Shown here in pieces: positions 29,066-37,140 of a stretch of 37,140 bases of DNA. Each line of letters starts with the position of its first letter. The stretch's first letter is position 1. Source of the DNA: Bacillota bacterium (GTDB taxonomy: Bacteria > Bacillota_I > Bacilli_A > RF39 > UBA660); contig SVAX01000011.1 in assembly GCA_015059155.1 (NCBI GenBank), positions 1-37,140 of the forward strand, given 5' to 3'. A program made the translations under genes and the position numbers. The notes beneath the pieces were generated by a model, which saw only the letters and a program-made list of their open reading frames with translations, ran no database searches and was not told the origin of the DNA.

Positions 29066-29386
29066 CTATATTACTTTTTCCAAAAATATCTTTTTATCAA
29101 ATGCTCCTCTTTTTTCACTTTTTTTATTAGCAATTCCTATTACTTCTTCTAATGTTTTATTTTCTAATTTAGCAAGTGATTTTATAACCTCTATCATATC
29201 TGCTAATTCTTCTACTCTATCAAGTCCACTCGCTTCAATTACTTCATTATACTCTTCATATAATTTTTTCTCTAATTCTTCTTTATATCTTTGATCATCT
29301 AATATACTAATTATAGGTTTTTCTCCTTTTGATTCTATTATTTCTGGTATATTATCTCTAACTAATTTATTATATACTCTTTCCAT
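29066..29386 (-). CDS. MazG-like nucleotide pyrophosphohydrolase
   Basis: The 106-residue protein fits the all-alpha NTP pyrophosphatase group (MazG/HisE-like). The metal motif is LYEEYNEVIEASGL with the matching EELADMIEVIKSLA (EExxE then ExxD). The opening YNKLVRDNIPEIIES is typical of the small phosphoribosyl-ATP pyrophosphohydrolase-like proteins that remove odd NTPs. It starts 9 nt after the HIT gene with AGGAGG upstream and ends the unit before a terminator. It joins HIT, HAD and NUDIX genes that also act on nucleotides. His biosynthesis is unlikely as no his genes are near. Confidence 0.85.
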   Translation of the reverse strand: MERVYNKLVRDNIPEIIESKGEKPIISILDDQRYKEELEKKLYEEYNEVIEASGLDRVEELADMIEVIKSLAKLENKTLEEVIGIANKKSEKRGAFDKKIFLEKVI

Positions 29387-29395
29387 ATTTTCCTC

Positions 29396-29767
29396 CTAAT
29401 AATCTTTGTTTTTCGGAATTACTCCTCTTACTCCACCACGTGGATTCTTTACATCACCTTTATACCTTGGAATTAAGTGTAGATGAATATGCATAACACT
29501 CTGTCCAGCTGATTCGTTACAATTAAGCCCTATATTATATCCATCTGGGTGATATAAATTATCTAAATCTATTTTTGCTTTTCTAACTAATTCAAATATA
29601 GCATTTTGTTCTTCTATACTCGTATCAAAAAATGTTTCAATATGCCTTTTAGTTATAAATAACATATGTCCTTTATTTACTGGAAATTCATCATAATATG
29701 CGAGCGCTAATTCATTTTCAAATACTGGTGTTTTTTCTTTGAATTTATTACAAAATACACAATCCAT
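29396..29767 (-). CDS. HIT family nucleotide hydrolase
   Basis: The 123-residue protein is a histidine-triad hydrolase acting on nucleoside monophosphate adducts (AMP-lysine, dinucleotides). Triad: SVMHIHLHLIPRYKGD. N-terminal MDCVFCNKF and FITKRHIETF supply the Cys and His that bind zinc in many HIT proteins. GGAGG precedes the ATG. 94 nt separate it from the HAD gene without a clear terminator. It is likely part of the nucleotide-sanitation unit that ends with the MazG-like gene. Confidence 0.93.
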   Translation of the reverse strand: MDCVFCNKFKEKTPVFENELALAYYDEFPVNKGHMLFITKRHIETFFDTSIEEQNAIFELVRKAKIDLDNLYHPDGYNIGLNCNESAGQSVMHIHLHLIPRYKGDVKNPRGGVRGVIPKNKDY

Positions 29768-29861
29768 AACATATCCTCCTTATATAACATAAATAATAAT
29801 TGTTATAAATTAACACATTTAAAACACGTTATTATCTATATTTTTTTCTTAAATAATTATA

Positions 29862-30362
29862 TTATCTCATATATTTCAAATAGTCTAAACTATTAACTTT
29901 AGTATAATTTTTATTAACATTACCCCATCCATCTACATCACAATTATTTTTATTAAAATATATTGGAATGCCACCGTATTGTTTCCAATCATCTAAATTA
30001 TGAATAGTATCATCTATTAATATATTCCCTCTAGGATCTACTACTTCAGATTTTTTTAATGTATATGGAGATAATATTATTTCATTTTTTATTTCTAAGC
30101 TTCTAAGTAATTTTATTTTAGCTACACCCTCATTTTCCATAGAATGAATTTTAGTTAAAATAACAACATCTCTTAATTCCTTTAATATATTAATTGCGTC
30201 GTTTATAATTTCACTTTTCATTAATATTTCATCCCAATTTTTATTTTGAATATATTTTATTTTATCAAATTCATTTTTTATGTTTAAATTTCTATATTCT
30301 TCATCAAATAACCATATTTCTGAATCAAATATTACGCCATCAAAATCTACATATTTTTTCAT
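29862..30362 (-). CDS. HAD-like phosphatase, possibly a 5'-nucleotidase
   Basis: The 166-residue protein has HAD motif I in YVDFDGVIFDSEIW (Asp nucleophile and second Asp), motif II Thr in VVILTKIHS, a Lys in the region AKIKLLR and motif IV in NILIDDTIHNLDDW. The small size and cap-less layout resemble small deoxyribonucleotidase-like HAD proteins. It is followed by the HIT gene and preceded by NUDIX (21 nt apart), so a nucleotide substrate is plausible by context only. The ATG is preceded by AGGAGG. Confidence 0.8.
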   Translation of the reverse strand: MKKYVDFDGVIFDSEIWLFDEEYRNLNIKNEFDKIKYIQNKNWDEILMKSEIINDAINILKELRDVVILTKIHSMENEGVAKIKLLRSLEIKNEIILSPYTLKKSEVVDPRGNILIDDTIHNLDDWKQYGGIPIYFNKNNCDVDGWGNVNKNYTKVNSLDYLKYMR

Positions 30363-30383
30363 AAAACCTCCTGAGTTAATTTA

Positions 30384-30890
30384 TTATAAATTTAAATATT
30401 CTTTCACTACTTCTATTGTATCCCTAACTACATTCTCATTAGAAGAATTTTTTAAACTACTAGTTAATTCTTGTAATACTTTATTCTTATGAATATAAAC
30501 TAATTTAAAATTACCTGCTTTTTCTTCATCAGTTAAACTTGAATTATTTAAATTTATATTTTTATTATATTTAATTAAATAATAATTAGAAATTGATTTT
30601 GTATTGATACCTCTACTAGGATAATCTTTATTCATATAACTTATAGTAAAGAAAGGTTCCCTCTTTTCTAAACAAATATCAATACCAGTTTCTTCCTTTA
30701 TTTCTCTAACGATAGCCTCATCGAATGTTTCGTTTTCTTCTACTCTTCCACCTACAAAAAAATAATTATTACAACTATGAGCAAATAAAATTTCATCATT
30801 AGAATTAATCATAAGTGCTTTAGCTCTTCTAACTACTCTATTGATGTCTTCTTCTTTCAAATTATCATAATTATATAGTATTGTTTTCAT
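30384..30890 (-). CDS. NUDIX hydrolase, perfect Nudix box
   Basis: The 168-residue protein carries a complete Nudix box (GRVEENETFDEAIVREIKEE then TGI, about 48-71), which binds the metal for cleaving nucleoside diphosphate-linked substrates. It begins MKTILYNYDNLKEEDINRVV then RRAKALMIN, a common form in Firmicutes. It starts a unit with its own promoter, followed by HAD, HIT and MazG-like genes. The ATG is preceded by TAGGTGG. The substrate is unknown (oxidised or alarmone nucleotides are possible). Confidence 0.92.
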   Translation of the reverse strand: MKTILYNYDNLKEEDINRVVRRAKALMINSNDEILFAHSCNNYFFVGGRVEENETFDEAIVREIKEETGIDICLEKREPFFTISYMNKDYPSRGINTKSISNYYLIKYNKNINLNNSSLTDEEKAGNFKLVYIHKNKVLQELTSSLKNSSNENVVRDTIEVVKEYLNL

Positions 30891-30913
30891 AATCCACCTA
30901 ATTTCTTAATTAA

Positions 30914-30943
30914 ATTATATCATAATTTTTTTAAATTCTACAA
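30914..30943 (-). promoter_or_regulatory. Promoter of the NUDIX-HAD-HIT-MazG unit
   Basis: The minus strand has TTGTAG (30943-30938), an 18-bp spacer and TATAAT (30919-30914) with TGA in front. 24 nt before the ATG. Confidence 0.5.
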
Positions 30944-30968
30944 AAAAAGAAAAACCTAATGTTTTTCT
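30942..30968 (-). terminator. Intrinsic terminator after the Ham1-type gene
   Basis: AGAAAAAC (30948-30955) and GTTTTTCT (30961-30968) pair over a 5-nt loop, followed by T on the minus strand. It overlaps the stop codon and ends the ABC operon. Confidence 0.85.
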
Positions 30969-31519
30969 TCATTATTTAAGTATTCAGCTAATTTTAAATA
31001 GGCTGTATTATCCCATAAATTCCATCTATCTTCATCTTTAAAATTAGCCATAGTTTTTGTTTGACCTTTTGGAATAAAAATAAAATCCCAACTCCAACCG
31101 TATTCGCCACTTTTTTTAGTATCTATTGTACCTTCTGTTTTAGCTACTATCACAATAGGTTCTTTGCCAAGTTCACAGTAAGCTAAAGCTTCAACAAAAT
31201 AAGCATATCTATCTTCAATACCTTCCATAAGTTTAAGTATTCCATCTTCTCCTAATGTATCATCTACATAATGTGTATATGGTCCAGGAAAACCATTCAA
31301 AGCAGGAATAACTAATCCACTATCATTTTTAAGTACATTAGTTTTTAATTTTTCACTAGCATATTTAGCTGAAAATTTAGCAACTTCTTCCATATTATCT
31401 GCTTGTATTTCTATAGTATCCATTTTTACATTATTAATTTTAAATCCTAATGGTTCAAGAATTTGTTTAGCACTTGCCACTTTAGCCCAATTACCTGTTA
31501 CATATGTTATTTCTTTCAT
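30956..31519 (-). CDS. Ham1/RdgB-type XTP/dITP pyrophosphatase
   Basis: Ham1-type enzymes hydrolyse XTP and dITP to remove deaminated purines. The 187-residue protein has VTGNWAKVASAKQIL, the pocket DSGLVIPALNGFPGPYTHYV, and SGEYGWSWDFIFIPKGQTKT (usual text: GfGYDPiF), with Trp instead of Tyr. It is the last gene of the ABC exporter operon, 13 nt after the NUDIX gene, and TAAAGGAGG precedes the ATG. The sequence is more divergent than typical RdgB; exact base preference cannot be told. Confidence 0.85.
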   Translation of the reverse strand: MKEITYVTGNWAKVASAKQILEPLGFKINNVKMDTIEIQADNMEEVAKFSAKYASEKLKTNVLKNDSGLVIPALNGFPGPYTHYVDDTLGEDGILKLMEGIEDRYAYFVEALAYCELGKEPIVIVAKTEGTIDTKKSGEYGWSWDFIFIPKGQTKTMANFKDEDRWNLWDNTAYLKLAEYLNNEEKH

Positions 31520-31532
31520 ATTACCTCCTTTA

Positions 31533-32030
31533 TTATATTAATTTTTCTTTTTCTAATAAATTTTTAAAAGCAAGAATATTTCCTTTTCTAAATTCATTAC
31601 TTTCTATTAATTCTTTTATCTCATCAATGCTTAGCCATTTAACAAATTCTACCTCGTCTTTTTGTAGAACTAATTCATTAATATTTATATCTTTCTTTAG
31701 ATAATAAGTAGATTGAAAAGCATGTTCCCTTTTTATTGTTTCAATATATTTTATATCTTTAAAATCAATAACTATCCCTAATTCTTCTTGAATCTCTTTT
31801 ACAATCGTTTCATCTGCAGTATAACCTGATGAAACAAGTCCACCTGTAGTAGCCCAAGTATTACCTTTTTGTTTGGATGTTTTTTGTATTAAAAATTTAC
31901 CTTCACTATTTTGTATAAACACTATAACAATCTTTATATATTTGCCATCCTCAGGTTTCATGTCTTTACTTCTTAAAACTTTTTCACCAATTAAATTTTG
32001 ATTTTCATCGTATAAATCTAAATATTCCAT
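31533..32030 (-). CDS. NUDIX hydrolase, altered Nudix box
   Basis: The 165-residue protein starts MEYLDLYDENQNLIGEKVLR, as seen in IDI/YfcD-like Nudix proteins. Its box reads GLVSSGYTADETIVKEIQEE then LGI: the first Glu of GX5E is Tyr and the Arg is Lys, while the REUXEE acidic pair is kept, so metal binding may survive. It starts 4 nt after the permease gene and 13 nt before Ham1, inside the ABC operon. Function may be on nucleotide or isoprenoid-type pyrophosphates. Confidence 0.87.
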   Translation of the reverse strand: MEYLDLYDENQNLIGEKVLRSKDMKPEDGKYIKIVIVFIQNSEGKFLIQKTSKQKGNTWATTGGLVSSGYTADETIVKEIQEELGIVIDFKDIKYIETIKREHAFQSTYYLKKDININELVLQKDEVEFVKWLSIDEIKELIESNEFRKGNILAFKNLLEKEKLI

Positions 32031-32034
32031 ATTA

Positions 32035-32811
32035 TCAACTCCCTACACTAGAATATTTTTCCATACCCTTATAAAATATAATAATACTTGGTATCAAATA
32101 TAAAAGAGTTATTAGTGGACAAATTATAAATAACTTATTTGTCTCTTTTCCTAATATAAATAATAATGGATAATAATTAATAAATCCAAAAGGTACTATT
32201 AGTGTAAAAAACATAACAAAACCTTTCTTAAATATACCTATTGGATATTGTGCCATTTCTCTACAACCATAAGTTAAGACATTTCTAACTTCCAAACCTT
32301 TTATCGTATAAAAACAATAGGCAGCTGTTATAATTAATATACTTAAAAATATGAATATTGAACTAATTATCATAAATATTAAAGTAATAATTTTTTCTAT
32401 ATTCCAAATAACATCTATGTTTATAATAGCTATTACAAGTACTATAATTGATTGTAATAATCTAGACAATTTTATAAAACTAACTTGTTCACAAAAGACT
32501 TGTAATAAAATATTTCTAGGCCTTAAAAGTAACTTATCAAAATTACCTGCTACTATTAAATCATCAAATTGATCTATACCCCTAAAAAATGTTTCACAAA
32601 ATGAAAAACCAAATTGTATTATTCCAAAAGTAAGTAATACTTCATAGAGTGTGAATCCTTTTATATTTGAAAATTTATCAAATAAACAAATGATTGTAAA
32701 ATAATAACCAAAGAATACAAAGAATTGAGATATAAATGACATCATAAAAGATAATTTATATTGTAATTCACTTTTAAAATGAATCTTAAAATATTTAAAA
32801 TATAACCCCAT
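32035..32811 (-). CDS. ABC-2 type permease (COG3694-like)
   Basis: The 258-residue integral membrane protein has about six spans and the text DQFDDLIVAGNFDKLLLRPR typical of the ABC2_membrane_6/COG3694 group that pairs with a COG4586 ATPase and a COG4587 permease. It follows the first permease by 1 nt. Together they form an exporter of unknown substrate; related systems have been linked to drug or antimicrobial resistance and to envelope functions. The ATG at 32811 is preceded by GGAGG. Confidence 0.85.
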   Translation of the reverse strand: MGLYFKYFKIHFKSELQYKLSFMMSFISQFFVFFGYYFTIICLFDKFSNIKGFTLYEVLLTFGIIQFGFSFCETFFRGIDQFDDLIVAGNFDKLLLRPRNILLQVFCEQVSFIKLSRLLQSIIVLVIAIINIDVIWNIEKIITLIFMIISSIFIFLSILIITAAYCFYTIKGLEVRNVLTYGCREMAQYPIGIFKKGFVMFFTLIVPFGFINYYPLLFILGKETNKLFIICPLITLLYLIPSIIIFYKGMEKYSSVGS

Positions 32812-32812
32812 A

Positions 32813-33616
32813 TTAACCTCCTTGTATTACTGCTTTCTTTAATGCTTTTTTAGTAATTAATTTACCTAATATTACTAAAATTATTATCCATATTATTTGT
32901 ATCATAATTCCAATTAAACCTTCGTTAATAGTTATATTTCCAACATATAGTCTAAAAGGAAAATCCGAAATATATCTAAAAGGTAATATATTTGATATAT
33001 TTTGTAAATAATTTGGGAAAAATGGTACTGGTATTACCATTCCTGATAATATATCAGATATTACCATGAATATATTTATAACACCTTTTTCATCTAGAGT
33101 GAATAAGCAAATGACATGGTATAAAAGTACAAGTACAGTCATAAGTATAGTAGCTAACACCATAGTAATGATAGATAATATTAATCTAGGTAAAGTTATG
33201 CTTAAATCTAAGTTATAAGGGCTAGGAAGTATTATAGCAACCAATATTACTGGTAAAAATCTAAGTGCTACATTAGATAATCTTTCTCCAAGTATTTTAC
33301 TTGCCCACATCAAATATAAATCTTGTGGTCTGCATAACTCATAAGCAATATTTCCTGATTTTATAAGATTTATTATTTCCTTATCTTTATACCACAAATT
33401 AACAAGTGCGAATAAACTTTGTCCTAACCAAACATAACTTATTAATTCTTTTAATTCCATAGGTAAATTACCACTACCTGATTCATAGAATGCTACATAT
33501 ATAGAAACATATACAAATCCAAAAAAGAATTGCGTTGATAATCCTGCAAGTGCAGCTGCTCTATATTGAAGTCCCGTTTTAAATTTTAATTTAAAATAAG
33601 TTATATAAGATTTCAT
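32813..33616 (-). CDS. ABC-2 type permease (COG4587-like)
   Basis: The 267-residue protein has six hydrophobic spans and NLIKSGNIAYELCRPQDLYL then MWASKILGERLSN, the marker of DUF990/COG4587 permeases. Its ATG overlaps the ATPase stop in ATGA, so the two are coupled. It forms the first of two permease subunits of the exporter. Substrate unknown. Confidence 0.87.
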   Translation of the reverse strand: MKSYITYFKLKFKTGLQYRAAALAGLSTQFFFGFVYVSIYVAFYESGSGNLPMELKELISYVWLGQSLFALVNLWYKDKEIINLIKSGNIAYELCRPQDLYLMWASKILGERLSNVALRFLPVILVAIILPSPYNLDLSITLPRLILSIITMVLATILMTVLVLLYHVICLFTLDEKGVINIFMVISDILSGMVIPVPFFPNYLQNISNILPFRYISDFPFRLYVGNITINEGLIGIMIQIIWIIILVILGKLITKKALKKAVIQGG

Positions 33617-34593
33617 ATTTTAAAATCCTCATATAATTTAACAATTAATTCATCAATATTACCACTATCTATATCAATATCACTTATAGATATTTTAGAT
33701 GATATTAATTTTATAAATTCATTTATCTCAATTTTCCTTATGTCTATTATAAATTCTATTCCATCATCAATAGTATTTTGTTCTACTACACAATCATTTT
33801 CTAATTTTACTTTATCTTTAGTTATTACTGTTATCTTTCTTAAATAATCATATTTTCTTTTTAATTTAGTAAGTGATCCATCATATAACAATTGTCCTTT
33901 ACCTATTAATATTATTCTTTTTGCGAGTGCTTCTATATCTGCCATATCATGAGTTGTCAGTATTACTGTAACTTTATTTTGCTTATTTATTTTTTTTATA
34001 AATTCTCTAACTATTTTTTTAGAGACTGCATCTAAACCTATTGTAGGTTCATCTAAAAATAATATTTTAGGTCTATGAATTAATGAAGCCGCTATTTCAC
34101 ATTTCATTCTATTACCCAAGCTTAATTGTCTTACTGGAATATTTATTATATCTTTTAAGTTTAATAATTCTATTAATTCATTCAATGTTTTTTGATATTC
34201 ACTATCTTCTAATTTATATATATCTTTTAATAAGTTAAATGAATCAATAGCAGGTATATCCCACCATAATTGACTTCTTTGACCAAACACAACACCTATT
34301 TTAGATACATACTTTTTTCTATCTATCCAAGGTGTCATTTTATCAATTACAACATTACCACTATCAGGAACAAGTATTCCAGATAATATTTTTATCGTAG
34401 TAGATTTACCTGCTCCATTTGGGCCAATATAACCAACTATTTCTCCTTTCTTAATAGAAAACGAAATATCACTAATTGCTTTAATATAATTATATTTTCT
34501 ATTAAAGAAAGTTTTTAAAGCACCAAATTTCCCGTCTGATTTTATAGGTACTTTAAATGTTTTTTTAATATGTTTAACCTCGATGAATGACAT
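33613..34593 (-). CDS. ABC transporter ATPase (COG4586-like)
   Basis: The 326-residue ATPase drives the exporter. Walker A is GYIGPNGAGKSTTIKILSG (about 55-73), the Q-loop VVFGQRSQLWWD, the signature LSLGNRMKCEIAAS (a change from LSGGQ, as in COG4586), Walker B KILFLDEPTIGLD and the His in VILTTHDMADIEAL. A C-terminal extension of about 90 residues follows. AAAGGAG precedes the ATG at 34593, right after the leader element. Homologues pair with COG4587/3694 permeases as here. Confidence 0.93.
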   Translation of the reverse strand: MSFIEVKHIKKTFKVPIKSDGKFGALKTFFNRKYNYIKAISDISFSIKKGEIVGYIGPNGAGKSTTIKILSGILVPDSGNVVIDKMTPWIDRKKYVSKIGVVFGQRSQLWWDIPAIDSFNLLKDIYKLEDSEYQKTLNELIELLNLKDIINIPVRQLSLGNRMKCEIAASLIHRPKILFLDEPTIGLDAVSKKIVREFIKKINKQNKVTVILTTHDMADIEALAKRIILIGKGQLLYDGSLTKLKRKYDYLRKITVITKDKVKLENDCVVEQNTIDDGIEFIIDIRKIEINEFIKLISSKISISDIDIDSGNIDELIVKLYEDFKI

Positions 34594-34618
34594 TTTATCA
34601 ACTCCTTTCCCTAAAGAA

Positions 34619-34639
34619 TCAACAATTTATCATTTCCAA
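34619..34639 (-). CDS. Possible 6-residue leader ORF
   Basis: A TTG at 34639 lies 5 nt after GGGAGG, and the frame Met-Glu-Met-Ile-Asn-Cys stops at TGA (34621-34619). An ATG at 34633 in frame would give only MINC. Whether it is translated is unknown. The good ribosome-site match is the main reason to list it. Confidence 0.25.
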   Translation of the reverse strand: MEMINC

Positions 34640-34661
34640 ATTATCCTCCCTTCATTTAGTT

Positions 34662-34700
34662 TTACATAACGCAAAAAACCACATTTTTAAATGTAGCCAT
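34662..34700 (-). CDS. Possible 12-residue leader peptide MATFKNVVFCVM
   Basis: ATG 34700 to TAA 34662 encodes MATFKNVVFCVM. Its first codons run into the terminator hairpin, so a ribosome moving on it would change the hairpin. No strong ribosome site is seen upstream. Ribosome-based attenuation is inferred only from this layout. Confidence 0.3.
   Translation of the reverse strand: MATFKNVVFCVM
34673..34696 (-). terminator. Leader terminator (attenuator) inside the leader
   Basis: CTACATTT (34696-34689) pairs with AAATGTGG (34686-34679; one G-U pair) with a 2-nt loop, followed by six T (34678-34673) on the minus strand. It lies about 46 nt into the transcript and 80 nt before the ATPase ATG. 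Confidence 0.65.
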
Positions 34701-34748
34701 CTAGTTGTTTTTTAATAAATTGTAGATTCTTTGCAAAACGTCTCTTAA

Positions 34749-34777
34749 AATATATAATAAAAAAAGTATTTTGTCAA
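34749..34777 (-). promoter_or_regulatory. Strong promoter of the ABC/NUDIX/Ham1 operon
   Basis: The minus strand has TTGACA (34777-34772), 17-bp spacer and TATATT (34754-34749). The -35 box lies within AAAAAGTATT (34761-34770) and its inverse AATACTTTTT (34776-34785), a 10-bp palindrome that could be an operator or an extra terminator. Confidence 0.75.
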
Positions 34778-34809
34778 TACTTTTTCTATATGAATGTTAC
34801 ACTAAAAAG

Positions 34810-34836
34810 AAAAAACTAGAATATTTCTAGTTTTTT
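34810..34836 (-). terminator. Terminator of the surface protein gene
   Basis: AAAAAACTAGA (34810-34820) and TCTAGTTTTTT (34826-34836) pair over a 5-nt loop, followed by a short T run on the minus strand. It lies 8 nt after the stop codon. Confidence 0.85.
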
Positions 34837-34843
34837 TAGTTTG

Positions 34844-37140
34844 TTAGCTTTGTAACCATTTTAATATCGGGTAACTGCCACTAACATTAGTATTCCATGC
34901 AGACCAACTTGAATCATAAGTTGATGATGAGTGTAATTCTAAAGTTGTTTTTCCAGTACCTTTATTTAGTTGAGCTGAATAACTAGTTCCAATAGTATCC
35001 TTGTTATAAAACCATGTTGATTTATCCATATTTCCTGATAAACTATCATTCATTGAACCGGTTCCTATTCTTCCATATATAGCACCTGTATATCCGTTGG
35101 CAGATGTTCCCAACCATCCTTTTTTATCGGATTTAAATTTACCAATATATATCAAGTTTGACATAATAATATTTCCTGCAGATCCATTATAGTTACCTAA
35201 AATTCCACCTGAATCTGTAACTAAAGATTCTGCTATTCCTTTAGCTTGTGCTTCAACATCTATATCTGCAAAAACATTTGATATTGTTAACACTCCACCG
35301 CCTATTCCTATAACTCCACCAGTATCAGTTCCTGTTGCTGTTATTTGACTATTTGTTATATTTATTTCATTTACTGTTGTTGTTCCTCCAGCACTTCCAA
35401 TAAGCCCACCAGCAAATGATGTTCCATTTAATATAGCGTTATTTATTGAAATTCTATTAATAATAGTTGTTCCTGAAGTTGAACCAGCTAATGTACCAAT
35501 ATCTTGACTAGTAGAACTATTAATAGTTATATTATTAAATTTTAAATTTTCAACCGTAGCGCCAGATAACTTACTAAAGAAACCAACTTGATTCTCAGCT
35601 ATTTGCGTAATTTTAAGGTTAGATATTATATGTCCATTACCATTAAATGTTCCTTTAAAGTTTTCAGAAATTGGCGTCCATTCTTCATTCAATAAGTCTA
35701 TATCACAATTTAAGTTTACTGTTTTACCACTAAATGTTGTCCCTAAACTTACTAACGATGCAAATCCTTTTAATTCAGCTCTAGAATTTAAATCATTATC
35801 CTTACATAATATATATGATGAGGCTGATTCATCATACCAATCTGTATCTACCTCTAATGCCTCATAATCACCATAAATATTAATACTATTAGCGTTTGTA
35901 ACAATTGGTTTACTAAAATCAAATTTTGAAGTTAAATTACTATCAGAATACCAATCATTAAATTTAAATCCACTTAATTTAATATCATTAAATTCAGGTA
36001 ACATAGTACCATATGGAACTAAAATACTTTCAACAGTTTTTTCTCCATATTTAAAGTTTACTGTAATTAACTTAGTACCAGATTCATAAAAGAAGAAATA
36101 TGTACTTCCACCAACTTTCGCTTTAGTTGTTAAATATAAGGGAGTTCCTACTCCTTCACTCGTTATTCCAAAGTCTTTTACAACCCCAATATTTTTTGTC
36201 ACTATTCTAAAGAACGATGATGCTTCTACTGGGTCAGAAGAACCACTTCCATTTGCATTTGAACCGACCCAAGTCTTACCACCATCTAAAGTTGAAATAT
36301 CAAGACTCATTGATGATAATTCTATTTTATACTTTCCATTATATTGTCTATCTGCTGTTATATATTCATAATTTGTATTTGGAGCTTCAGCATTTTCATT
36401 TAATGTTATTGGCGTATTAGTTACAAATTGTAATGATCTTGTATCAATAACTCCATCTTGTGGTATTTGAATGTTAAATGTATTTATACCCTTCAATATA
36501 ATGCCAGATTGCGGATGTAATTCTGTACAATCTGATGTTGTATATATTTTAAAATTTAATGATTCTAATTTTGGAATAATATTCCATTTTGCATATAAAG
36601 TCATATTAGAGGAAATAGTTGTACTGTCTGTAACTTCTGTTATAAAGCTTTCTTCTTTATACCAGCCTCCAAAAACATATCCTTCTCTTGTTGGAATAAT
36701 ATGAGTGGTTGAAGTATTTTCCCATATTGCATATAAATTTATCACTTTATTATTTTCAATAGTTAAATTAGTAATACTAGCTTTATCCGTATATATTACT
36801 TCTCCATTTGAAGATGTGCTCCAACCTTTAAATATAGCTGATACTGTATTTGTTTGATCTTCAGCACTACTATAATTCATTTTATATGTAATTGTATATT
36901 CCTTATTATAAGAATTTGAGGTTAAATTACTAGACGTTCCATAATAATGAGTACTATTATTCATACTTCCACTTGTACTTGTATTTCCTATATAACTAAT
37001 TTGATATTGATTAGCTGTAAAGATTGCTTCAAAACTTAAGTTTCCTATTGTTCCTTGTTCAATCTTTCCATTTGATTCTTCTCCATTTACTTTCCAGCCT
37101 TTAAATGTATAGCCTTCTTTACTTGGATTATTTAATGTGA
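34844..37140 (-). CDS. Large surface protein with B-repeats and GLUG-like repeats, N-terminus cut by window edge
   Basis: The frame is open from the stop at 34844 to the right edge (about 765 codons), so the N-terminus is missing; the ATG at 36964 is not the true start, because TLNNPSKEGYTFKGWKVNGE lies upstream in frame. InlB-type B-repeats (Listeria-Bacteroides repeat) are seen as EGYTFKGWK, FKGWSTSSNGE and REGYVFGGWYKEE then LYAKWN. A beta-rich middle part of about 230 residues is followed by another GFKFNDWYSDSNL, and then GLUG-type repeats (VGFFSKLSGATVENLKFNNI, GTLAGSTSGTTI, AGGLIGSAGGTT, TGGVIGIGGG). No C-terminal sorting motif or membrane span is seen; it ends LKWLQS. It is likely secreted and adhesive. 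Confidence 0.85.
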   Translation of the reverse strand, partial: TLNNPSKEGYTFKGWKVNGEESNGKIEQGTIGNLSFEAIFTANQYQISYIGNTSTSGSMNNSTHYYGTSSNLTSNSYNKEYTITYKMNYSSAEDQTNTVSAIFKGWSTSSNGEVIYTDKASITNLTIENNKVINLYAIWENTSTTHIIPTREGYVFGGWYKEESFITEVTDSTTISSNMTLYAKWNIIPKLESLNFKIYTTSDCTELHPQSGIILKGINTFNIQIPQDGVIDTRSLQFVTNTPITLNENAEAPNTNYEYITADRQYNGKYKIELSSMSLDISTLDGGKTWVGSNANGSGSSDPVEASSFFRIVTKNIGVVKDFGITSEGVGTPLYLTTKAKVGGSTYFFFYESGTKLITVNFKYGEKTVESILVPYGTMLPEFNDIKLSGFKFNDWYSDSNLTSKFDFSKPIVTNANSINIYGDYEALEVDTDWYDESASSYILCKDNDLNSRAELKGFASLVSLGTTFSGKTVNLNCDIDLLNEEWTPISENFKGTFNGNGHIISNLKITQIAENQVGFFSKLSGATVENLKFNNITINSSTSQDIGTLAGSTSGTTIINRISINNAILNGTSFAGGLIGSAGGTTTVNEINITNSQITATGTDTGGVIGIGGGVLTISNVFADIDVEAQAKGIAESLVTDSGGILGNYNGSAGNIIMSNLIYIGKFKSDKKGWLGTSANGYTGAIYGRIGTGSMNDSLSGNMDKSTWFYNKDTIGTSYSAQLNKGTGKTTLELHSSSTYDSSWSAWNTNVSGSYPILKWLQS

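Follow-up and report, generated by a model that had tools for sequence, protein, structure and literature searches.

HelD returns stalled RNA polymerase to use and shields the enzyme from rifampicin (PMC12802891). In Bacillus subtilis, helD is induced by sub-MIC rifampicin via two convergent promoters, and the resulting helD/pps alarm, which controls helD and, by prediction, transporters, would need no dedicated regulator (PMC12802891). The 5′ region of actinobacterial helD/helR genes carries the rifampicin-associated element (RAE), a palindrome of 19 bp that is presumed to be a factor-binding site (PMC12802891). For Escherichia coli, the passage of PMC6181997 that cites Newman 1982 describes increased readthrough under rifampicin at terminators including the rpoBC attenuator. 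Ribosome-mediated leaders of antibiotic-exporter and ABC-F genes (vmlR and similar) also place a terminator before a resistance-type gene. The MDR-NUDIX RNA motif of Saccharibacteria is located upstream of exporter/NUDIX genes.

Here, we describe a leader RNA from a 37,140-nucleotide stretch of Bacillota DNA (referred to as the window) that has features in common with each of these systems. As in the B. subtilis alarm, the genes concerned are helD and a transporter, and no dedicated regulator would be needed; two convergent promoters interfere there, whereas here a single promoter is followed by a leader terminator. The E. coli rplL-rpoB attenuator likewise is an intrinsic terminator with readthrough that rises under RNA polymerase inhibition, as proposed here for the leader, but in the cited passage of PMC6181997 it is situated inside an operon, whereas the element described here is a 5′ leader with conserved boxes that precedes two unlinked genes. 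The RAE similarly combines a helD 5′ region with a rifampicin response; according to its description it is a palindrome, in contrast to the RNA hairpin and U-tract found here in AT-rich Bacilli. Unlike vmlR-type leaders, no conserved upstream ORF is present. The likeness to the MDR-NUDIX motif is a superficial one of gene company in the window, as the leader has no Rfam match and NUDIX genes are not conserved with it.

Leader and exporter operon in the window

The leader is encoded on the minus strand and runs from approximately 34742 to the start of the exporter ATPase gene at 34593. All pieces listed in a sequence-only reading of this DNA (promoter with a palindrome, hairpin with six T, two short ORFs, a second ribosome-site-like GGGAGG, and inverted arms) are present in the window sequence. 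The promoter comprises a −35 element TTGACA (34777-34772), overlaid by the palindrome AAAGTATTGACAAAATACTTT (34783-34763), and, at a distance of 17 nt, a −10 element TATATT (34754-34749); the transcription start expected from it is G34742. The conserved 5′ box GACGUUUUGCAA (34731-34742, from alignments A1 and A4) is located at this putative start, and the P1 5′ strand GCAAAGAA lies at 34727-34734, with its partner UUUUUUGC at 34678-34671. The terminator hairpin P2 (CUACAUU-UAAA-AAUGUGG, 34696-34679), assigned from pair counts and folding, had a calculated energy of −4 to −7 kcal/mol (−4.0 kcal/mol when folded alone). The U6 tract (34678-34673) and the conserved 3′ box UUUUUUGCGUU (34668-34678, tract included) mark the expected termination point. 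A hairpin directly abutting a U-tract is found after the promoter, between start site and gene, which is a feature of intrinsic-terminator attenuators.

The 12-codon ORF (34700-34662) traverses the hairpin. Further downstream, GGGAGG (34650-34645) precedes the ORF of 4-6 codons, which has a TTG or ATG start and a TGA end (34639/34633-34619). The 5′ arm (34732-34715) overlaps the P1 5′ strand, and the 3′ arm (34630-34613) matches the 18-nt 5′ arm at 17/18 positions; the ribosome site AAAGGAG of the ATPase gene follows at 34608-34602. All these elements are on the minus strand. When folded, the window leader was more stable than its dinucleotide shuffles (z −3.7).

The claim that the leader fits no catalogued RNA class was borne out by Rfam searches: at gathering thresholds, neither the window nor any of 13 homologous loci gave a match, and positions 34400-34900 gave none up to an E value of 5. 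The leader RNA is real, absent from Rfam and lineage-restricted as far as searched.

The genes downstream, all on the minus strand, encode a COG4586-like ABC exporter ATPase (33613-34593, PF00005 with 96.9 bits), ABC-2 permease A (32813-33616, PF06182), ABC-2 permease B (32035-32811, PF06182), a NUDIX protein (31533-32030), and a Ham1-like protein (30956-31519). The only gene set constant across loci was ATPase-permease-permease. The NUDIX and Ham1 genes, initially counted as part of the controlled operon, were present in the nearest relative (L055), with NUDIX1 also found in L057 and L060, and were missing from most other loci. They were considered local passengers of the operon and were rejected as functional partners because they are not conserved with the exporter. 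They belong to a series of genes for nucleotide handling that lies past the exporter (29066-32030, minus strand) and is followed by an acetate kinase gene; it contains two NUDIX genes and encodes the Ham1-like XTP/dITP diphosphatase, a HIT protein, and two proteins for which Pfam gave no match, one MazG-like (threshold 1e-3) and one HAD-like. Just upstream of the leader, a gene for a large surface-type protein with repeat-like segments (34844-37138, minus strand; 764 amino acids, cut by the window end) is followed by an inverted repeat with a T run at 34810-34836.

Conserved core and pairing

ATPase orthologues were collected from 12 of 58 relatives (E ≤ 1e-60) and from 32 of 386 family genomes (E ≤ 1e-105), their upstream regions were read, and the leader was redefined by comparing 76 distinct leaders. 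The comparison upheld a leader with a terminator before the exporter operon: the leader was kept in more than 30 exporter orthologues of many genera, and a terminator preceded the start in 32 of 36 exporter homologues. The conserved element comprises only the first approximately 75 nt of the transcript (34742-34668). Its order is a GAC-N-U(3-6)-GCAA box right after the promoter, a variable middle, the hairpin with a 3′ strand reading AUGUGG(C), UUUUUUGCGUUG, and the ribosome site. The hairpin, the U6 tract, and the flanking boxes were conserved in dozens of leaders, which is beyond chance. The first 13 nt were invariant in all 24 leaders of A4, as were U6 and the following G in both A1 and A4; the length of the U-tract in the 5′ box ranged from 3 to 6. 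The distance from U6 and the following GCGUUG to the gene was approximately 20 nt in the family and approximately 80 nt in the window.

The best sense promoter scored 9.3 of 12 versus 8.0 in shuffles (74 leaders). The RNA probably starts at the GAC box because the end of the −10 element lies 6-7 nt before it in 54 of the 74 leaders. The palindrome over the −35 element, which had been noted as a feature and was considered as an operator, is absent in the relatives L009, L010, and L033 and was discarded. Three exporter orthologues (L046, L047, and L048) have a divergent leader reading GACACAU..AUGUGUUUUUUUG, still with a hairpin and a U-tract approximately 20 nt before the start.

Neither short ORF of the window belongs to the conserved core. 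The nearest relatives (L009, L010, and L012) either lack the 12-codon ORF or have it in a different frame, and it was judged coincidental. The ORF of 4-6 codons is conserved only alongside the arm sequence and looks like a by-product of the arm, since it was lost in L013, L031, and L032, where the arm sequences stayed complementary. In sister genera (L014, L033, L038, and others), which have neither ORF, the position of GGGAGG after the 3′ box is that of the true ATPase ribosome site, and the exporter gene starts there. In the window's genus-level group, an insertion of approximately 50 nt after GGGAGG supplies both a new ribosome site and the 3′ arm; what had been taken for a second ribosome site is thus a relic at the sister genera's real site, displaced by a genus-specific insertion.

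The 18-nt arms had been described as framing the whole element, which applies to the genus-level group and not to the family-wide core. The duplex of the window's own arms was calculated at −19.0 kcal/mol (z −4.4), and the arms paired at −17 to −22 kcal/mol in most genus-level leaders (L031 unscored). Compensatory changes were found in L013 and L032, and in L032 the two arms fit one another far more closely than the 3′ arm of this leader fits most others. Judged from these alignments, the arms were added at the genus level and, beyond chance, have been maintained there through compensatory changes. A mobile element or repeat bounded by the arms was dismissed, as no second copy was detected in the own genome.

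The leaders fall into two groups. The first has a short, local terminator stem, CUACAU/AUGUGG or a variant of it. In the second, the largest set in the pattern scan described below, the 5′ and 3′ strands pair with each other to give one long hairpin, the loop of which contains CCC. Both groups have six U directly after the stem, which is the arrangement of an intrinsic terminator. P1 was paired in 92.3% of cells over 8 pairs in 26 leaders, among which its first pair showed changes from G-C to A-U. In A1, 90.8% of cells were paired and double changes exceeded those in shuffles; an alternative pairing was likewise above shuffles. With regard to a mutually exclusive antiterminator, both pairings thus have support in A1, but the CCC-loop subtype forms one hairpin alone. 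In A4, 95.5% of cells paired, with 20 double-changed cells versus 5.4 ± 1.9 in shuffles. With a tree-based null for the A4 subtype, the top 4 of 2016 column pairs were exactly the four variable neighboring helix pairs (one-set E 0.004 to 0.06). When the tree-based test was applied to the mixed set (38 sequences), no significance was reached across all column pairs, with the P1 closing pair 9-69 ranked second. Homologous leaders thus show covariation between helix columns, and the clearest signal comes from the commonest subtype.

The RNA up to the U-tract was predicted to form weak hairpins (about −6 to −10 kcal/mol) in many leaders, and the ribosome site of the readthrough RNA was mostly free of leader pairing in predicted folds. 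Some single folds hinted that the 5′ U-tract sequesters the ribosome site, but this reading was rejected on the basis of a mean pairing probability with nt 1-10 of 0.05, and in silico mutation or deletion of the 5′ end did not free the ribosome site. As the site is mostly unhidden in these folds, the point of control is most likely termination. By its sequence, the leader is built like an intrinsic-terminator transcription attenuator. The 5′ GACGUUUUU box is the only element both conserved and unpaired, and it does not pair with the ribosome site.

Target genes and possible signal

A covariance model (R1) was run over the 386 family genomes. Besides the exporter, it identified leaders before a gene for a protein of approximately 675 residues, which is HelD as evidenced by NCBIfam HelD_BACSU (514.9 bits versus a cut-off of 419) and PDB 6wvk (E value 7e-103). 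The protein aligned to 6wvk from residue 5, the class I N-terminal arm is present, and WED and the D at Bsu D56 are kept. R1 matches inside ftsE and at unrelated terminators were considered chance in AT-rich DNA. With a refined model (R2), run with laxer filters on 39 genomes chosen as carriers of exporter or helD and with rows assigned by position, 40 matches were obtained: 29 before the exporter, nine before helD, and two by chance. A pattern scan of 85,000 species genomes returned 59 stretches, 46 of them in gut or rumen MAGs of uncultured Bacilli/Firmicutes. Forty-one of these precede the exporter (two assigned by eye from a gene start at the locus end) and five precede helD; the remaining 13 were scattered chance matches in unrelated taxa. 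'Candidatus Aphodocola' (Bacilli incertae sedis) was the sole genus-named taxon among the matches. A class-level search with strict filters gave no further leader match. The leader targets are the exporter and helD, and nothing else as far as searched.

The leader precedes both genes in four genomes (G400, G273, G178, and G281), with almost the same sequence at the two sites in G400. In G021, helD, above the HelD cut-off, is the next gene after permease B (55 nt gap); in G005, a HelD-like gene with 386.1 bits, below the cut-off of 419, follows permease B after approximately 12 nt. A terminator of any sequence was located 8-75 nt before the start in 15 of 29 family helD genes versus 69 of 353 background genes (p 2e-4); about half of the family helD genes lack one. 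Upstream of other helD genes of the family (L165-L168, L173, L183, and L185), a hairpin of different sequence leads into UUUUUU(G)GCGU or a box resembling it, so that the terminator keeps its position before the ribosome site but not its sequence.

The second target changes the meaning of the leader as first read: with the same leader before helD, what is monitored would be RNA polymerase and not the ribosome. We tentatively propose, at somewhat less than an even chance, that the leader is an attenuator in which inhibition of RNA polymerase raises readthrough without the involvement of a ribosome or a ligand. In healthy cells it would terminate most transcripts and keep exporter and helD expression low. 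When RNA polymerase is partly inhibited by rifamycin-like or other compounds, termination would drop, and the exporter and the polymerase-rescuing HelD would be made. The leader terminator could gauge polymerase inhibition because E. coli terminators, in the cited passage of PMC6181997, are read through more under rifampicin. As a slow RifR polymerase terminates more, not less (PMC13236596), the direction of the response rests on that E. coli precedent. In the window's genus, the 5′ arm of the long-range helix overlaps P1, and the helix is expected to form only in readthrough RNA; there it may stabilize the transcript and keep the new ribosome site accessible.

A stricter form of the proposal is rather unlikely, namely that the leader is a self-contained sensor of polymerase stress, independent of ribosome, ligand, and regulator, in which polymerase inhibition itself elicits the HelD rescue motor and a matching exporter. 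If true, it would be a third way, besides the RAE and dual promoters, of reading a rifamycin-type attack. The leader links an orphan exporter family to RNA polymerase protection in uncultured gut Bacilli and offers a small, portable element for direct tests of how cells sense polymerase inhibitors. The attenuator proposal predicts that the exporter removes such inhibitors. If the mechanism holds, intrinsic terminators would serve as gauges of polymerase performance.

A bare terminator does not account for how strongly the GACGUUUUU box, although unpaired, is conserved, which leaves room for a protein-dependent antiterminator or a ligand. A trans-acting RNA-binding protein, or HelD/RNA polymerase itself, that binds the 5′ box and the stem and blocks termination would fit a 13-nt box in A4 that is invariant beyond pairing needs and makes no pairing with the ribosome site. 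We regard it as unlikely, as the conserved three-gene operon has no linked regulator gene and the U-tract in the box is of variable length. An uncatalogued riboswitch, with an antibiotic or stress nucleotide as the ligand that alters how hairpin and U-tract pair, would agree with the two alternative pairings that use the same terminator 3′ strand in some leaders, with the exporter/stress type of the controlled genes, and with the failure of any Rfam class to fit. However, the stretch between the boxes is free to differ in both sequence and length, a single long hairpin makes up the commonest subtype, and the conserved unpaired core is limited to the 5′ box and the CCC-containing loop, which makes such a switch improbable.

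A constitutively leaky terminator or 5′ stabilizer of the mRNA with no regulated input, for which the weak hairpins of many leaders would speak, is similarly improbable given the long conservation of boxes and helix and the occurrence of the leader before two functionally linked stress genes. The convergent dual-promoter rifampicin alarm of B. subtilis helD/pps has similar targets, helD and a transporter (PMC12802891), but the best antisense promoter within +1 to +110 scored 7.8 of 12, not above the 8.05 of shuffles (74 leaders, the set in which the sense promoter exceeded its shuffles), and such an alarm is very improbable here. Least probable is the attenuator of the sequence-only reading, with ribosomes stalling on the 12-codon ORF or that of 4-6 codons: both exist in the window, and in several close relatives the shorter comes with a good match to a ribosome site, but stalling would need a conserved upstream ORF and, given the losses described above, none is conserved.

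A second leader motif in the family

In the same family, a second riboswitch-like leader motif was observed, reading GUGAG..AGCU..AGGG..CCUACACG..CGGAGUCAC followed by a terminator and often arranged in tandem pairs. It precedes genes for a paralogous exporter ATPase, GNAT acetyltransferases, and a nucleotidyltransferase (L019, L020, L022, and L259-L285), and is also found in the own genome (G000:C15:47646-47667, L275). L022 gave no Rfam match up to an E value of 1. The core of the motif had 27 exact matches in 18 of 243 genomes, and the reversed-pattern control had none. On contig C2 of G005 (L059), the HelD-like gene stands in a row with the exporter and with a further, paralogous exporter that carries the second motif.
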